In this document: positions 23,434-32,765 of the stretch, in pieces
How the letters are laid out: each line of letters starts with the position of its first letter
How positions within the stretch are numbered: position 1 is the stretch's first letter
NCBI GenBank assembly: GCA_028696815.1
Contig: JAQVGG010000013.1
Location: forward strand, 1 to 33,045
Direction of reading: 5' to 3'
DNA from: Candidatus Altimarinota bacterium
GTDB taxonomy: Bacteria; Patescibacteriota; Gracilibacteria; BD1-5; UBA6164
DNA length: 33,045 bases
Translations under genes and position numbers: made by a program
The notes under the pieces: model-generated
What the model was told of the DNA's origin: nothing
What the model saw: the letters and a program-made list of their open reading frames with translations, nothing else
The model's database searches: none

Positions 23434-24636
23434 ATGAAAAAACAAAAAAAAGCTGAAAGTCTTATAGCAATTATTATAGCGATTCTTATACTTTCATTTA
23501 TATTAATAGGTGTTATGAGTATGCTAAGTTTTGAAAATACAATTTCACTTAATTTTGAAACAGAAATCAAAAAGTATATACTAGAACTAAACTCTAACAG
23601 TATAATTAAAAAACTTGATCTATCTACTATACAAGAAAATGAAGAATTTTACATATATAAAAATGAAACAACAAAAACTTATGAAGTATTAACTTGAGCT
23701 ACAAATGAATCATATAAGTATATAAATTACTTGTGAGAAAAAGTAGATCCAGAACAAAATATATGAAAAACTTTTACCAGATCATATACAAAAAAGTTTG
23801 ATATATTGAGGCATAAAATAAATCCGGAGGAAATAAATAACTTAGTTTTTAGATTTGATGCACAAAATCCTTGAAGTACATTAAATGACAACAATACTGT
23901 CTCAATTTGGTATGACCAATCATGAAATTCATTAAATTCATATCAAAGTAATTTAACTGAGCAGCCACTCTATAAAGAAAATATTATAAATTGACATCCA
24001 TGAATAATTTTTGATTGAAGCAATGATAAATTAATTATTAATGATACCTCTTTAATAAATACTGCTAGTTTTAATAAAAAAAGTTTTGCTATAGTTTTTA
24101 AAACAGGTTTTGATGTAAATACTACTCAAGTAATTTATGAACAATGAGATGCAAACAACTGATATAATATAATGATATCAAACAGTATATTATATGCTTG
24201 AGCGTATAATAATAATTGGGATTCTTGACATCAAAATAAATTTTTACCATTATGAGAGATAATACCAGATAGTGTTTACTTTGTTGTATTTACTCAAAAT
24301 AGTTCTAATATTAATGATAATGAAAATACTTTACAAATATATTTAAATTGAATACTTGTTGGTACTCTAGATCATGTGGATGCCCAGTCATCTCATACAA
24401 CTATTTGACTATGATGAATAAATTCTAATACTAGACAAGCTTTTCCAAGTTATTCAACAATAAATACAGCTTATTTTGATTGAGCTATATGAGAAATAAT
24501 CTCTTGGAATAATGTTTTATCTCCAACAGAAATTAAGTGAATAAAGGAGTATTTTGCAGAAAAATGGTTATGATGAAGTGAAGATATAGAGTATAATATA
24601 GTAAATACTACCATAAAAAAGTACAATCCAAATTAA
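23434..24636 (+). CDS. Large pilin-like protein with LamG/concanavalin-like domain, 400 aa
   Basis: ATG at 23434 to TAA at 24634-24636. The leader is MKKQKKA, then ESLIAIIIAILILSFILIG, a pilin-type helix whose position 5 after the putative cleavage is Ala, not Glu. The region from about residue 130 to the end reads as a LamG/concanavalin-like jelly roll: FRFDAQNPGSTL, VSIWYDQSGNSLN, ASFNKKSFAIVF, LQIYLNGILVGTLD, then GAIGEIISWNNVLSPTEIK. This is the same style of domain used by adhesins to bind sugars. A large pseudopilin without Glu5 parallels GspK, the tip subunit of type II secretion pseudopili. A tip adhesin role is inference. It is divergent from the leftward pilin pair and 24 nt ahead of the next pilin gene. 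Confidence 0.85.
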
Positions 24637-24660: not shown

Positions 24661-25449
24661 ATGAAATACTCAAATAAAGCCTTTACTTTTGTTGAACTTA
24701 TAATAGTTGTAACTATAATGACTATATTATGAGGAATCTGATTTTCTTCTTATATCTCATATCTTTGAGATTCAAGAGATTCTCAGAGAAAATCAGATAT
24801 ATCCCAAGTATCTTCTTCACTTAAAATATATAAACAAAAAAGATGATATTATGCTCTACCTTGAGATTATTTTAATATAACATATAGTTGAACTACTGTG
24901 GCTTATCAATGAGAGTTAAATACTAATGTACGTCTTGATTCACTTGAAAGATTACCAAGTGATCCTAAAACAAAATGATATTATACTTATGCTACAACTA
25001 AAAATAAACAAGAATTTCAGATAGCTTCCTCTTTAGAAAATGAAGAAAAAAACATAGCATTACTTGAATGAAATTACAAATCTGTATCAAAGAATATATT
25101 ACCTACAATTATGTTTGCGGCAAACACTCCAACATGAAACAACTTAGAAATAAAAGAGTGAACCACAGAGGGAGATTTAGCAAGAAAATTATTTGTATTT
25201 AATAACCAATCTCACAATTTAGTGTATACTTTTGAAGAACCTTATTCTCCCAAGAGTGATGATACTAGCTTTGATTTATTACTTTTAGAAGCTGAATCTA
25301 ATAGTAACTTTTGGCCAAATAGTGATTATAGAAATTGTGTTGAGATAGTAGAAGCTTGAAAATTAATACTTCCTTTATCCGCTACTTCTTTTGAATATCA
25401 AATCGTAACTGACACATGAGAATTAGTGAATACATGATGTACTTTGTAA
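24661..25449 (+). CDS. Type IV pilin-like protein with canonical Glu5, 262 aa
   Basis: ATG at 24661 to TAA at 25447-25449. The leader is MKYSNKA, then FTFVELIIVVTIMTILWG: Phe at +1 and Glu at +5, as in major pilins and GspG/GspH, but Ala instead of Gly at -1, which some peptidases accept. After the helix comes GDSRDSQRKSDISQVSSSL, the typical alpha-1C segment of GspG-type pilins, then GYYALPGDY. It ends with a short Cys-containing tail (two Cys, NCVEIV and GCTL, possibly a disulfide). At 262 aa it is long for a major pilin, yet it is the best candidate in this window. It comes directly after the LamG pilin. Confidence 0.88.
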
Positions 25450-25545: not shown

Positions 25546-26394
25546 ATGTCAGGAATAAAAATAGATTTAAAAGCTTTAAAAAACAGCTACAATCCGAAAT
25601 GAGATAATAAAAATTTTACAGAAAAGGAAATACCTACTTCTCAAGCTATTACTAGTGAAGCATTAGAAGAAGAAACTAAAGATAATAAAATAGAAGCTTC
25701 TATAGAAAAAGAAGTAACTATTGAAAAACAGGAAATAAAACCTGAACTTCAAGAATCTATAAATGAAGAAAAAAATGAAAAAAGCCCATTAAAATCAACA
25801 AAAATCAATTTAATGTGAATTAAATCACTTGATAACACAAGTGATTTAATAAAAAAAGTAGAAGCATCAAAAAGTGAAGAAGAAAAAACTGAAAATGTAA
25901 AAACTAATGATAAAGAAGCAAATAAAGAAATATTTTCTCAATATAAATCTGATTTTGTAAAAAACAAAGAAACTATTATTGATGGAATAAAAAAATTAAA
26001 AAATATTCCAAAAACAAGAATATGACTTGTAGTATTATTAGTGCTTATATCTTCAATATGAATTTGATCTCTTTTTATAATTAACCCTGAAATACACTCA
26101 ATAGAAAATTACAAAACTAGTATACTAGAAATATTTAAAGAACCTAAATCAGATATTGAAAAACCTATTAAAGTTGAAGAAACACCTATAAAAAATGAAG
26201 TTATAGTAATCCCAAGTAATGTAATAAAATGATGAATAAATATAAATTATAAAAGTGAGATTATAAACTGACAAGAAACCATAAATTACAATTGAAAAAT
26301 CTACTATTCAAAAGCAGAGTTTGAAACAGAACTACCAAAAATAATCGAAAAACTAAAAATAGAAAAATTAACTGATTATTTAAGAAATAAATAA
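25546..26394 (+). CDS. Single-pass membrane protein of unknown function, 282 aa
   Basis: ATG at 25546 to TAA at 26392-26394. The first ~155 residues are highly charged (Glu/Lys-rich, low complexity, likely disordered and cytoplasmic). One transmembrane helix lies at about 160-182 (IGLVVLLVLISSIGIGSLF). About 100 residues outside carry NYNGKIYYSKAEFETEL and a basic end. It could take the place of an assembly platform partner such as PilN/PilO, but no sequence match is visible. It sits between the pilin genes and pilB, with its own promoter upstream and a weak terminator after it, so it may be transcribed alone. Confidence 0.75.
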
Positions 26395-26510: not shown

Positions 26511-27749
26511 ATGTCAGATTTTACCTTAAAAGAGATAAATAAAATAGATCAATTAGAAACAAAAGAAGATATTTGAGATGTTGTTTCGTATATAAATGAG
26601 ACATTTAGAAATGCTGTTGAAATTTGAATTTCAGATATCCATATAGAACCAACTGAACATTTTATCTTGGTTAGGTTTCGTAAAGATGGTGATTTCTTTT
26701 TATATGATAAAATATGAGCTAGAAATACAAGCGCTATAGTAACTAGACTAAAAGTATTATCAAAAGTTAAAATTGATGAGAATAAAAAACCTCAAGATTG
26801 AAAAATAGTTTATGTTTATGAAAAAGAAAAGAAAAATATAGATATTCGTGTATCTACTCTTCCAACTAAGTACGGTGAAAAAGTAGTAATGAGAATATTG
26901 AAACAAGATGCAAGTTTAACTAATCTAGAAGCATTATGATTGATTGAAGTAAATCTAGAAAAAGTTAGAGAAGCTTTAAAAAGTAAGTACGGTATAATTC
27001 TCATTTCTGGTCCAACTTGATCATGAAAATCTACAACTTTATTTTGAATATTAAAATCATTTAACCCTTTAGAATACAATATATCTACTTTAGAAGATCC
27101 AGTTGAATATGATATAGAATTTGTTAACCAGTCTCAAGTAAAACCAGAAATTGGGTATACATTTGCTACTTGATTAAGAACTCTCCTTAGACAAGATCCT
27201 GATATAATAATGGTATGAGAAATAAGAGATAAAGAAACAGCTGTACTTGCAGTAGAAGCAGCTCTTACATGACACTTAGTGCTATCTACAATACATACAA
27301 ACTCTGCAACTAGTACAATTCAAAGACTTGTAAACATGTGAGTAGAAACATTTTTAATAGCTTCAGCTATGAAAATGGTAATATCTCAGAGACTGTGAAA
27401 AAGAATTTGTAGTAACTGTAAAGAAATATATACGCCAAAAGAAGTAGAACTTAAAAAGGCTAAAAAAATACTTGAACCAATTTTAGATAAAGATAGCTTA
27501 GAAAATTTAGTCTTTTATCACTGAAAATGATGTGAAGTATGTAGCTGAACAGGATATAAATGAAGATTATGAGTACATGAAGTTCTAATAGTTGAAGATT
27601 ATCTTGAACCAATGATACTTGAAAAAGCCTCAGCTAATGAGATGCAAGATGAAGCAGTAAAACATGGAATGGTTACAATCGTACAAGATTGACTTCTAAA
27701 AGCTCTAATCTGAGAAACAACTATAGAAGAAGCCCTTAAATTAATATAA
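26511..27749 (+). CDS. pilB: Type IV pilus assembly ATPase PilB/GspE-like
   Basis: 412 aa, ATG at 26511 to TAA at 27747-27749. It powers pilus extension. An N2-like domain (SDIHIEPTEHFILVRFRKDG, then RLKVLSKVKIDENKKPQDG) leads to Walker A GPTGSGKS (167-174). The Asp box (STLEDPVEY), Walker B (QDPDIIMVGEIRD) and His box (LSTIHTNSATSTIQRL) follow. A zinc-binding set of four Cys (RICSNC and CEVCSGTGY) is typical of PilB/GspE and absent from PilT. The N-terminal MshEN/T2SSE_N domain of full-length PilB (about 560 aa) is missing, so it starts directly at N2. TGA encodes two of the Walker A glycines. It precedes the phosphatase gene. Confidence 0.93.
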
Positions 27750-27795
27750 GCATAAGGCGTTAGGACGCTTTGCTCTTAGGTTACAGTAATATTTA

Positions 27796-27823
27796 CCTAC
27801 AACCTACAATCTACAACCTAATA
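27796..27823. repeat. Heptamer tandem repeat CCTACAA
   Basis: Units CCTACAA, CCTACAA, TCTACAA, CCTAATA follow each other in the 84-nt spacer between pilB and the phosphatase gene. The C content is higher than the surrounding DNA. Confidence 0.6.
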
Positions 27824-27833
27824 ACTATTATAA

Positions 27834-29738
27834 ATGTTTTCCCTATTTAAAAACAAAGAGAAAAATTTAGAAAAAGTAAATTGATATAAACAAGCCATAA
27901 AAATGATTAAGTTTTTTATGGCTACTTATGATTGGGAAAAAGCAAAAGATGCAATTGAAGAAATAAAAGAAAAAGAGTTGAGATGATATAATGAACTAAT
28001 AGAAAATTTAAATACTCAAGATGATGAACTACTTATATGAAAAGAAAAAAATAGACAAAATAAGATTTATGAAGAAAAAGTACAAGAGTTAAACGCATTA
28101 GAAAATAAGTTAGAAAAATTAAAAATTAATTATGAGGAACAAAGAGAAAAAGATAGATTTAAAGTAAGATTTACAAATATAAAAAAAGAATTAAACATAC
28201 TTATCCGTAAAAATAAAGGCGAAGCTGCTATAAACCTACTAAATCAATTCTTAGATGAAAACAAAAATAAAGAAATAGTTATCAAGTTTTATAACAAAGA
28301 AAAAAAATACATATTAAAAAATTTAAAAAAATTTAAAAAAGTTGAAGATGACAAATTAAAACAAAATGCAAAACTTGAAGCGATGAAGCTTATATGAGAA
28401 AACGTAAATTTAGATAATGAGAACTCTGATGAAAATAATAAAAAAAATATTTGATTTTTTAAAAAATTAAAAAATAAAATAAATTTTTATAAAACTTTCA
28501 AAGAAAAATTAAGAAAGAAAAAACTGCTTGATGAAATAAGTCTCTTAATAGAGGAAGATAGTAAAGTAAAAAATGATATAGCAACACAAAAACTGGTAAA
28601 TATACATAAATGACTTATAAAAGAGATATCTCAAAATAATATGATATGATACCATTTTTATGGGAAAATATTATGAGCTGATAAAATATCTGGTGATGCA
28701 TTTTGATTTAATGAAGAAAAAAATAAGTATAACTTTTTTATCTGAGATGCAACATGACATGGAATAAGGGCTTGATTTATTATTACATTACTTAGTAGGT
28801 TATTTAATGAATCAGTAAATAAAAGTTTACAAGAACTTATATATCAAGTTAATAATGGTTTAAAACAAGATTTAAAAAGTAGAAACTTTATTACAGGTAT
28901 ATTTTTTGAAATTGAGAAAAAAAATATACATAAAATAAAATATGTTGGTATGGGGCATGAACCTATGCTTATATATAAAGCAAAAGATAGAAAAATTGAA
29001 AAACTTATACCTGGATGACTTGCTGCTTGAATAAGAATAATAAACAATCCTGAACAAATAAAAGTAAAAGAAATAGATTTAGATAATTGAGATATAGTTC
29101 TTAGTTTTAGTGATTGAATTGCTGAAGCAAAATCAGAAGAATGAATTTTCTATTGAATTGACAGACTTATAAAAGCATTTGAACAAATAGCTTCTACCTG
29201 AGCCCCCCTAAACTCAATTTATGAGCATATACTAAACGATGTAAAATACTTTAAATGATGAAGTAATTTTGTTGATGATGTTACATTACTCCTACTCAAA
29301 AGAGATATAGAAAGAGATATTATTGATAAAAATTCTGAGTATTTAAAAGAGTTAACATTAAAATGAAAAATAAGCCAAAGAGATGTTAAAAAAATAGTAT
29401 GAAAAACAAAAGATCATATAGAAAAAGAAGTAGAAAAAATAGCAAAAGATAAAAAAATAAAAAGTATAATAAAAAGTTTAGAAACTCTTTATTATACATG
29501 AGAAATTTTAAAATTAAAACAAGAAGCTATTAGATTTATAAAAGACTGATATATAGATGCTAAAATAAACCACTACTTAAAAAAAGCAATAGAAAACGAA
29601 GAAAAATACAAAATTGAACAAAAAAGCCAAAGAGTAAGAAATAAATATAATGTATTAAAAGAACTATTAAAAAAATGAGATTATATGACAGTGATTAGAG
29701 AAACCGAAGATATAATTGCAAAAGATTGAAATATATAA
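27834..29738 (+). CDS. SpoIIE/RsbU-type PP2C phosphatase with long coiled coils
   Basis: 634 aa, ATG at 27834 to TAA at 29736-29738. The N-terminal ~260 residues are charged coiled coil (EEIKEKELRGYNELIENL, NALENKLEKLKINYEEQ). The PP2C domain lies at about 265-490. It starts GADKISGDAFGF, with metal-binding Asp near residue 284, then FFIGDATGHG with the Asp near residue 303. Further on are KYVGMGHEPMLIY and VLSFSDGIAEA (Asp near 426), and VDDVTLLLL ends the domain. Glycines of GDATGHG are partly TGA. The final ~140 residues are again coiled coil. Enzymes of this family dephosphorylate Ser/Thr on partner proteins in switch systems. Here no kinase or anti-sigma partner is adjacent; it sits between pilB and pilC. 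Confidence 0.93.
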
Positions 29739-29772: not shown

Positions 29773-30993
29773 ATGTTTTGAATTTGAAACACATTTTACG
29801 ATAAGTACTGAAACTTTAATAACCATGCTTTCTTAAAATTACTTGAGGAAGCAAGAAAGAAACAGTATAAAAAACAAAGAAAATCTATGTGATTTGCAAA
29901 TAAAGAAATCACTCTGTTTAATAGTGTTTCAAAAAAAGAAGTTTGGCAATTTATAAACAAACTATCAATATTCATAAATTCTTGAATAGATATAAAGTGA
30001 GCCTTAAATATCTTAGCAAAACAAATAAAAAATCCGTATCTAAAATCTATAACTCTTGAAATAAAAGACAATATAGATCATGGTATAGCTATAAATGAAA
30101 CTATGGCGCAATTCCCTAAAGTATTTGATAATTTAACTGTTGCTCTTATAAAAGTATGAGAAAAAACTTGAAGATTGTGAGATATTTTAATAGAACTAGA
30201 GTCAAATATGCTAGAAAGTATAGAATTGAAATCAAAAGTTAAATGAGCGATGATTTATCCAATTATTCTATTGTGATTAACTATAATCATGGTTGTATTT
30301 ATGATGATATTTATAGTTCCAAGAATCACTGAATCATTTGAAAAAGCATGATGAGAACTACCTTGAGCAACTCAAGTGGTTGTTAATATATCACATTTTA
30401 TAATTAATGATTGGTGAAAAATTATTCTTGCAATTATCTGAGTAGTTATAGTATTTAAACTTATAAATTTTACATACCTGTGAAGAATATTGTTTGCAAA
30501 TTTATATATAAAACTTCCTATATTTTGATATATTGTAAAACAATCAAATATAGTTTTCTTTATAAAATCATTTACTATACTGCTAAACTCTTGAGTACTA
30601 CTTCTTGAATCACTAAAAACATCTAGTCTAGTAGTATCAAACCTAGCTTATAAAAAAGAACTTATAAGAATCAAAAACGAAGTTGAGCTTTGATTAACTA
30701 TATCAAAATCTCTTTGATTAAACTTAGAATATGAGGCAAATATCTATATGAATAAACTATTCCCTGAAGAATTTGCGTATGTTGTAAGTACATGAGAAGA
30801 AACTTGAAGCTTATCAAACTCATTAAGTAAAATATGAACTAACTATAACAATGAATTAAAAAGATATATATGAAATCTTTCTAGTATGATGGAACCGATA
30901 ATAATTGTAATTGTATGATTTTTAGTATGATCAATAGTAATATCAATTATGCTTCCATTCTTTGAAATGTGAAAAATCGCAAAAAACCTATAA
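29773..30993 (+). CDS. pilC: Type IV pilus inner-membrane platform protein PilC/GspF
   Basis: 406 aa, ATG at 29773 to TAA at 30991-30993. It forms the membrane platform on which PilB and PilT act. The first cytoplasmic GspF domain carries EVWQFINKLSIFINSGIDI, then FDNLTVALIKVGEKTGRLGDIL (family motif VGExTGxL), followed by a membrane helix (MIYPIILLGLTIIMVVFMM). After the FxxAGGELPGATQVV loop comes a second helix. The second domain has FTILLNSGVLLLESL and EFAYVVSTGEETGSLSNSL. A last helix sits near the C-terminus. Two TGA-encoded glycines are in the second VGExTG-type motif. It starts 34 nt after the phosphatase gene. Confidence 0.94.
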
Positions 30994-31019: not shown

Positions 31020-32099
31020 ATGAAAGTAATAAAACCAGAACATAAGATAAAAGATTTACTACTTCAAGTTATGATTGATAATGAATGAAGTGATATGTAT
31101 ATAACTGTATGAACTTATCCAGCTATAAAAATAGGATGAGATATTATAAGGATTGATGAATGAATAGAACCATTTACATGGAAAGATACATTTGAATTTG
31201 CTCAGTCACTTACAACTGAAGAACAACATGATACTCTTATAAAAACAAGAAACCTAGATTTTTCATTTTCTTTTTGAACTAGAAGATTCAGAGTAAATAT
31301 TTCTTTTCAATTATGAAACTATATGGTAGTTTTAAGACTTTTAACTGCAAAAATACCAAATATAGAGTCTCTATGATTACCTGATGTATATAAGGATGTA
31401 ACAAAAAAATGACAATGATTGGTAATAGTTACAGGTCCTACTTGATCTTGAAAAACTACTACTCTAGCAGCAATGATTGATTATATAAATGAAAACTACA
31501 ACAAACATATAATAACTATAGAAGATCCTATTGAATATGTTCACACACATAAAAAATCAATTATAGAACACAAAGAAGTATGAAAAGATGTTCCAGACTA
31601 TGAAACTGCCCTGCTTGGTGCTATGAGGCAAAATCCACAAGTTATCATGTTTTGAGAGATGAGAACAAAATCACAGATGGAAAGTGCACTAACTTTAGCT
31701 GAAACAGGTCATATAGTATTTACTACCCTACATACTCGTTGAGCATATCAAACTGTAACTAGAATACTAGATAGTTTTACTTGACCTGAAAAAGATCAAG
31801 TAAGGATGCAACTAGCTGACTCACTTGTAGCAGTTTTTTCTCAAAGACTATTAAAAACAAGAGATGGTACATGAGTAAAACTTGCAAAGGAAATACTTGT
31901 AAATAATAGTGCTGTAGCTAATATCATAAGAGAAAGTGAACTACATCAACTTCCTAGTGTTATACAAATGTGACAAAGAGAAAGTATGCAACTACTTGAA
32001 AAAGATATAGTGAGTATGATAAATTCATGACTTATAACAGAAGAAGAATGACTAAGATACTCAAATAACCCAAAACTTATAAAAGAATCTTTAGAGTAA
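31020..32099 (+). CDS. pilT: Type IV pilus retraction ATPase PilT
   Basis: 359 aa, ATG at 31020 to TAA at 32097-32099. It powers pilus retraction, used for twitching or DNA uptake. Motifs in order are: N-terminal [17 protein letters not shown], Walker A GPTGSGKT (139-146, with two TGA glycines), Asp box [11 protein letters not shown], Walker B PQVIMFGEMRT, and His box [18 protein letters not shown]. The PilT-typical C-terminal AIRNLIRE-like motif appears as AVANIIRES. There is no four-Cys zinc site, which separates it from PilB. Length is typical (about 340-370). It closes the rightward pilus operon, 26 nt after pilC, and is followed by a strong terminator. Confidence 0.95.
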
Positions 32100-32113: not shown

Positions 32114-32149
32114 AAAACTCCTCTTGGAAATCCAAGGGAGTTTTATTTT
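32114..32149. terminator. Terminator after pilT, shared with the convergent hepT
   Basis: The stem AAAACTCC-CTTGG / CCAAG-GGAGTTTT has one bulge and flanking A- and T-runs. It overlaps the stop codon of hepT. Confidence 0.85.
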
Positions 32150-32463
32150 AATAAATCTTTTAAGATAGGTAAATTATCTTTTATAGTTCTCCAAATAATT
32201 AAATCATCTATTCAAGCATAGTCATGAGTGATTCTATTTCTAAATCATCTCATCTTTGCGAAAGGTATACCTTTATAGTTATCTCAAACTAATTCACCTA
32301 ATTTTATTCAGCATTCTCAAATATGTTGCAATCTCATACAACAAGCATCAAACTTTTCTAAATTATTTTGAAAATCAGCAAAAGTCATTCAATTTACATA
32401 AAATTCTATAATCTCAATTGATTTCAAAATTTCGTCTTCATAAAATTTTGTATTCTTTTTCAT
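32143..32463 (-). CDS. hepT: HepT-like HEPN-domain toxin (DUF86)
   Basis: 106 aa, ATG at 32463 to TAA at 32143. It is an all-helical HEPN RNase. The active-site motif RNRITHDY (R75, H80, Y82) is the exact RX4HXY signature, and the residue before it is a TGA glycine. The N-terminal helix contains ILKSIEIIEFYV. In known pairs HepT cleaves RNA and is neutralised when MntA adenylylates the Tyr of this motif. Its start is 2 nt after the stop of the mntA gene on the same strand, the usual order. Confidence 0.93.
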
Positions 32464-32465
32464 TA

Positions 32466-32765
32466 CTAAAAAATTTTTATTAAATCTTTTTTTATAAATT
32501 TTCTTAAGTTTGGATTTACACTTCTATTTGTAATAAAGTCTACTCTAGGTACATTTAATTCTTTAGTAATTTTATCTTCTATCTCTTGCAATCAAAATAA
32601 ACTAAGATTTGAGTCTTCTCATATAGTTATATATAGATCTAGATCACTATCTTTTTTTTGTTCTCATCTAGCATATGATCAAAATACTGATAAGTGTTTT
32701 ATTCAGTATTGCTTTAAAAAATCTTTTAAATTAGGATTTTTGAGTTTTTCTTTAAAATCTAACAT
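32466..32765 (-). CDS. mntA: MntA-type nucleotidyltransferase antitoxin
   Basis: 99 aa, ATG at 32765 to TAG at 32466. The minimal nucleotidyltransferase signature is complete: GS at 29-30, ten residues, then DLD at 41-43 (GSYARGEQKKDSDLDLY). A third Asp is in VPRVDFIT. MntA antitoxins transfer AMP to the toxin HepT, which is the next gene. The two glycines around the motif (GS and RGE) are TGA codons. Upstream 13 nt lies a very small HicB-like gene on the same strand. Confidence 0.93.

Follow-up and report, generated by a model that had tools for sequence, protein, structure and literature searches.

What does a phosphatase of the SpoIIE/RsbU type do between the motor and platform genes of a type IV pilus? 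The question is raised by the window, the whole 33,045-nucleotide stretch of Gracilibacteria DNA analyzed here, in which a PP2C phosphatase gene separates pilB from pilC. A preliminary description of the sequence suggested that the enzyme controls pilus extension or retraction by protein phosphorylation, perhaps by acting directly on PilB, PilC or a pilin-associated factor. We ask below how firmly the gene is tied to the pilus, which partners the genome offers it, and which mode of action best accounts for both.

The phosphatase and its operon

The phosphatase gene is read as one long open reading frame (27834-29738, forward strand) only with NCBI code 25, in which TGA encodes glycine; under code 11, no long ORF spans the phosphatase region. 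The frame contains 27 in-frame TGA codons, and their reading as glycine, together with the conservation of the protein, rules out a chance or misread ORF. The product is hereafter referred to as SpoIIEpil. All four genes of the operon, in the order pilB-SpoIIEpil-pilC-pilT, are matched by Pfam or NCBIfam profiles, and profile searches find type IVa pilus machinery in the genome (PilB, PilC, PilT and pilins). The features of the locus are:

24661..25449, forward strand: pilin-like protein with an N-terminal methylation motif (PF07963, 22.6 bits, cut-off 21.2)
25546..26394, forward strand: 282-aa protein upstream of pilB, with one likely membrane helix (by eye)
26511..27749, forward strand: pilB, pilus extension ATPase, 412 aa (T2SSE, E 3.4e-118)
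27834..29738, forward strand: SpoIIEpil, SpoIIE/RsbU-type PP2C phosphatase of the pilus operon, 634 aa in code 25
27834..28613, forward strand: N-terminal helical arm of SpoIIEpil, residues 1-260, charged (AlphaFold2 helices)
28614..29318, forward strand: PP2C catalytic domain, residues about 261-495 (invariant aspartates, fold match)
28695-28697, 28746-28748, 29112-29114 and 29274-29279, forward strand: metal-site aspartates D288, D305, D427 and D481/D482
29319..29735, forward strand: C-terminal helical domain, residues 496-634 (conservation, AlphaFold2 helices)
29773..30993, forward strand: pilC, inner-membrane platform, 406 aa (T2SSF, E 1.9e-48), a member of the phosphatase-linked PilC clade
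31020..32099, forward strand: pilT, retraction ATPase, 359 aa (TIGR01420, 397 bits, curated cut-off 319)

These coordinates agree with the placement first described, between pilB and pilC and 34 nt before the latter, and the assignment to the RsbU/SpoIIE kind is upheld by a complete domain, SpoIIE (PF07228, residues 297-490, E 5.1e-33, 115 bits, cut-off 25), which is the sole domain match of the protein. The profile matches of the window's PilB include no N1 domain. The gap between pilB and SpoIIEpil (27750-27833) measures 84 nt, more than the relatives' median of 13 nt, and holds a short hairpin and small direct repeats; as RNA, its folding falls within the range of shuffled sequences (z -1.1), and we rejected the hairpin as a candidate element. 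Among relatives, the gene for the 282-aa protein often retains its position upstream of pilB. Directly beside pilT, on the reverse strand, lie a HepT-like ribonuclease and an MNT-type nucleotidyltransferase (32143-32463 and 32466-32765), a pair resembling HEPN-MNT toxin-antitoxin systems. A further pilin-like protein (23434-24636, forward strand) carries a weak laminin-G/concanavalin-type domain, below the Pfam cut-off, and is possibly a modular adhesive pilin.

The five metal-site aspartates (D288, D305, D427, D481 and D482) are invariant among 37 aligned SpoIIEpil sequences, so SpoIIEpil, with its catalytic residues intact, should be an active phosphatase. Its PP2C fold is closest to RsbU of Rv1364c (3ke6, Z 24.4), SiaA (Z 24.2) and SpoIIE (Z 22.0), and bacterial PP2Cs of the PstP/Stp1 type score lower (Z 17.0-19.3). 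In the AlphaFold2 model, built from 37 relatives (mean pLDDT 79.7), helices precede the PP2C domain (residues 18-187 and 209-253) and follow it (502-630); pLDDT is low at 188-209 and 238-260, which makes the placement of the arms relative to the catalytic domain unreliable. The long coiled coils originally noted on both sides of the domain are broadly borne out as flanking helices, but the C-terminal part resembles short helical hairpins, with weak TPR-like matches, more than pure coiled coil. Conservation along the protein peaks at residues 546-634 (mean top-residue frequency 0.68, vs 0.62 in the catalytic domain). When the C-terminal arm was modeled alone, Foldseek returned no match at E 0.001, and the helical matches obtained, TPR/14-3-3-like (best VIA Z 9.1 over 56 residues), were too weak to interpret. 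The N-terminal arm varies in length among relatives, by up to about 550 extra upstream residues; in L130, L019, L135 and L031, among other stretches, it is ~280-550 residues longer and appears by eye to contain repeated helical units. SpoIIE/RsbU phosphatase domains are known to be switched by flanking helices.

Gene order and the associated PilC clade

Conservation was assessed in 60 genomes including that of the window: 36 of the same family, 22 of a second family of the order (hereafter, f2) and two of a third. A long SpoIIEpil match is present in 35 of the 36 same-family genomes (in G025, split into two pieces), the exception being G028, where a weak SpoIIE match close to the end of a contig is all that was found. 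Nine of the 22 f2 genomes encode SpoIIEpil, a further one has a copy cut by the contig end, and neither of the two genomes of the third family encodes it. In the relatives' loci, pilB lies directly before the gene in every case (43/43; median gap 13 nt) and pilC follows it wherever the contig continues (41/41; median gap 19 nt). The opposite pattern, pil operons of relatives that usually lack the phosphatase, had been named in advance as evidence against a functional arrangement; it did not occur in the relatives' loci. The same placement recurs in 17 named records assigned to Candidatus Gracilibacteria, other Patescibacteria and an uncultured bacterium, nearly all to the first two: each has pilB immediately upstream of the phosphatase, and each that extends far enough has pilC on the other side. 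The pilB-SpoIIEpil-pilC order is retained across dozens of genera in two families, with the pilT side and the upstream genes rearranged, and full-length SpoIIEpil relatives are confined to these two families among 353 genomes of the class. Similar SpoIIE proteins occur in other phyla (Kapabacteria, Ignavibacteria and others), and none of their 38 loci adjoins pilB or pilC.

The slot between pilB and pilC was also inspected in the sister group f34, where it is occupied by a pilin, not a phosphatase. The ORF in question (L256 104-1162, L261 243-1280) is apparently a pilin fused to an upstream four-helix protein, which by eye resembles 23S rRNA intervening-sequence proteins.

Genomes with SpoIIEpil encode several PilC proteins, and the 40 that adjoin the phosphatase fall into a single clade of the FastTree phylogeny (99% local support), which has zero phosphatase-free members. 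Counts of T2SSF matches per genome, at two matches per PilC, follow the same division: each of the ten f2 genomes with SpoIIEpil has 6-8, whereas the number is 4 in 11 of the 12 that lack it. G053, the remaining genome, has 6; four of these were fetched, and they represent two PilCs of another clade. From these counts and the fetched loci, which cover part of the PilCs of those genomes, relatives without SpoIIEpil appear to be without the whole pilus locus too.

A fusion of SpoIIE with PilC is found in G136, a distant genome from another order of the class that uses the standard code. Directly after pilB, a 1,059-aa ORF joins in one frame a SpoIIE domain (residues 214-407, 127 bits) to PilC (T2SSF, 156 bits) through a helical linker, a layout that mirrors the gene order of the window. 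The fusion is present in one of the 353 genomes of the class, and its PilC sits on a long branch, so it may be an independent event.

Candidate partners in the genome

The preliminary description saw no adjacent STAS or anti-sigma partner. This holds for the surroundings of SpoIIEpil, but both are encoded elsewhere in the genome (G000; 98.8% complete, 6.2% contamination). One stand-alone STAS protein is RsbV-like (116 aa, G000 C4:26429-26743; TIGR00377 59.5 bits, cut-off 53.45), and its phospho-serine site, N59-S60, shows no variation among 20 sequences drawn from several orders. One kinase is RsbW-like (175 aa, G000 C36:64157-64681; PF13581 37.6 bits, cut-off 27.4), with GHKL motifs (N, G1 and G2 boxes) invariant in 14 sequences. 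These two genes and SpoIIEpil lie on separate contigs. The use of TGA in the partner genes and in that of a second SpoIIE (below), and gene surroundings common to relatives, argue against contamination. An RsbW/RsbV module elsewhere in the genome had been held to speak against a dedicated role at the pilus; its parts are there, the STAS protein with an intact phospho-serine motif and the RsbW-like kinase, but their pairing with SpoIIEpil is one that we infer.

The RsbW-like kinase is also the outcome of the search for a Ser/Thr kinase or an anti-sigma-like kinase, which yielded no Hanks-type Ser/Thr kinase, that is, no Pkinase match above the Pfam cut-off in the genome. A weak match in L268 was discarded as, by eye, a 197-aa aminoglycoside-kinase-like fragment. 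Sigma factors detected with Sigma70_r2 are RpoD and two short ECF proteins, and none of the matches in the genome is of the sigma-B/F/G type.

The kinase gene adjoins an HU gene and a member of a second pilin/PilC cluster in 22 of 30 relatives' loci; where the stretches are longer (L205, L206, L209, L210 and L182), the full PilC/pilin cluster is seen near it. In the window's own genome, the pilin cluster and the kinase gene are about 26 kb apart. Because the HU gene stands between the pilin cluster and the kinase gene, this linkage may reflect a housekeeping neighborhood.

The genome encodes a second SpoIIE protein, SpoIIE2 (L001 1423-2661; L207, G000 C25), with likely N-terminal membrane helices, whose gene adjoins ftsA and a gene for a VirB4/TraG-like ATPase. 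Relatives of SpoIIE2 occur across two families, including nearly all f2 genomes without SpoIIEpil. The presence of the STAS protein and the kinase is not tied to that of SpoIIEpil, as f2 genomes that are without it keep both. Since they are found also where SpoIIE2 is the only such phosphatase, SpoIIE2 may be the enzyme that the module serves, and the substrate of SpoIIEpil may be a different, private one. Elsewhere in the class, in other orders, STAS and SpoIIE genes lie side by side. Another SpoIIE, about 695 aa long, is encoded in three genomes (G045, G047 and G048; stretches L096, L097 and L095), where STAS and RsbW-like genes lie a few kb away at most; together they seem to form a partner-switching cluster of the classical kind, in addition to the other genes. 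Most of the extra STAS matches in relatives are large proteins (about 600 aa), SulP-type-transporter-like by size and not RsbV-like.

A proposed partner switch at the pilus and its alternatives

We lean, with moderate confidence, towards the view that SpoIIEpil is anchored at the pilus and is the phosphatase of a partner-switching module that acts on the pilus and not on a sigma factor. SpoIIEpil would be a dedicated component of a single retractable type IV pilus machine in Gracilibacteria, most likely held at the PilB/PilC base by its helical arms. The single RsbW-like kinase, encoded elsewhere, would phosphorylate the single stand-alone RsbV-like STAS protein, and SpoIIEpil would oppose it by removing the phosphate. 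The phosphorylation state of the STAS protein may then set the activity of the pilus, or of a related effector, or may instead report the state of the pilus to the cell; no sigma factor would be the output of the switch.

This retains part of the original proposal of phospho-control. The tie to one pilus is supported by the invariant order, the PilC clade and the fusion, but we find no support for favoring PilB, PilC or a pilin as the direct target: a STAS protein and an RsbW-like kinase are encoded, and no Hanks kinase scores above the cut-off. As SpoIIE-type phosphatases act on STAS phosphoproteins, a partner-switching module, with a substrate that we infer, is more economical than a direct pilus-protein substrate. 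That SpoIIEpil nevertheless dephosphorylates PilB, PilC, PilT or a pilin with no STAS intermediate seems rather unlikely to us. Such a role would suit the operon position and the exclusive link to one PilC clade, as well as the SpoIIE-PilC fusion, and it would fit the failure of the STAS and kinase genes to covary with SpoIIEpil, given that SpoIIE2 could be the phosphatase they serve. It leaves pilus-protein targets with no obvious kinase, however, and the PP2C domain is nearest in fold to STAS-specific phosphatases.

Signals might also run outward. SpoIIEpil could read pilus assembly or retraction, on contact with a surface or host, and, by way of the STAS protein and the RsbW-like kinase, elicit a response of the whole cell, in transcription or otherwise, rather than control the pilus. 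Its helical arms flank a domain that in relatives is switched by flanking helices, its place at the motor and platform genes is invariant, and the STAS protein and kinase, being common to SpoIIE2, may integrate several inputs. We nonetheless regard this as quite improbable, because no sigma-B/F-type factor was found in the genome to receive the signal and because the kinase gene lies beside pilin/PilC genes, which suggests a pilus output. Compact genomes can retain gene order by itself, and a phosphatase with no relation to the pilus, once chance had fixed it in the operon, could persist through synteny only. We give this very little credence: the order is kept in dozens of genera of two families despite rearrangement of the pilT side and the upstream genes, the phosphatase appears to be absent together with the pilus locus, another order has the fusion, and the C-terminal arm is as conserved as the catalytic domain.

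Partner switches with outputs other than a sigma factor have precedents. HmpU-HmpV-HmpW of Nostoc punctiforme hormogonia is a partner switch with the STAS protein HmpV as output, and matches the present case in its Rsb-like phosphatase/kinase/STAS parts list, its non-sigma STAS output and its occurrence in cells moved by type IV pili (PMC6495340). In SiaA-SiaB-SiaC of Pseudomonas aeruginosa, a PP2C phosphatase and an opposing kinase set the phosphorylation of the STAS-like SiaC, again with a non-sigma output (PMC7647112). These precedents support the reading of a partner switch with a non-sigma output, and the SiaA PP2C domain is among the closest folds to SpoIIEpil. SpoIIEpil differs from the Hmp system in its long helical arms and its place in a motor operon; to our knowledge, HmpU-V-W is neither inside a pilB-pilC operon nor involved in a PilC fusion. 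SiaA is a membrane sensor, and SiaABC, encoded in one operon, has a diguanylate cyclase as output and is, as far as we know, not tied to pilus genes. With RsbU-RsbV-RsbW and SpoIIE-SpoIIAA-SpoIIAB of Bacillus the module shares the catalytic domain, the STAS phospho-serine motif and the GHKL kinase type, but here the genes are unlinked, the phosphatase lies in a pilus operon and no sigma-B/F-type factor was found. The parts belong to known families; what is new, as far as we found, is the motor-operon placement, the clade-wide coupling and the PilC fusion. In a literature search with most subscription journals outside its coverage, none of these was found described, and no paper joining SpoIIE with pilB/pilC came to light, in keeping with the initial impression that the arrangement was undescribed.

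Most Patescibacteria are thought to live on other cells, and we know of no mechanism by which they time pilus extension and retraction. In the one case studied, Saccharibacteria TM7x, pili drive host binding and twitching; TM7x has two type IV pili and, like the genomes considered here, several pilB/pilC systems, of which one includes pilT and is associated with twitching (PMC12206443). It differs in that the word 'phosphatase' is absent from the main text of that paper (PMC12206443). Our analysis suggests that a protein-phosphorylation switch, undescribed for these tiny and mostly uncultured bacteria, either controls the pili of Gracilibacteria or receives information from them. SpoIIEpil and its likely kinase and STAS partners offer a concrete, testable control point for Patescibacteria pili; the enzyme would also exemplify a partner-switching phosphatase that is integrated into the very machine under its control. 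More tentatively, SpoIIEpil may belong to the pilus base in stoichiometric amounts, attached to PilC as the G136 fusion would have it, and turn the state of extension or retraction into STAS phosphorylation, thereby acting as contact sensor and switch in one. We see this as possible but doubtful; if true, host-dependent Patescibacteria would possess a pilus-borne contact switch that needs neither c-di-GMP nor Chp/Pil chemotaxis proteins nor an alternative sigma factor.
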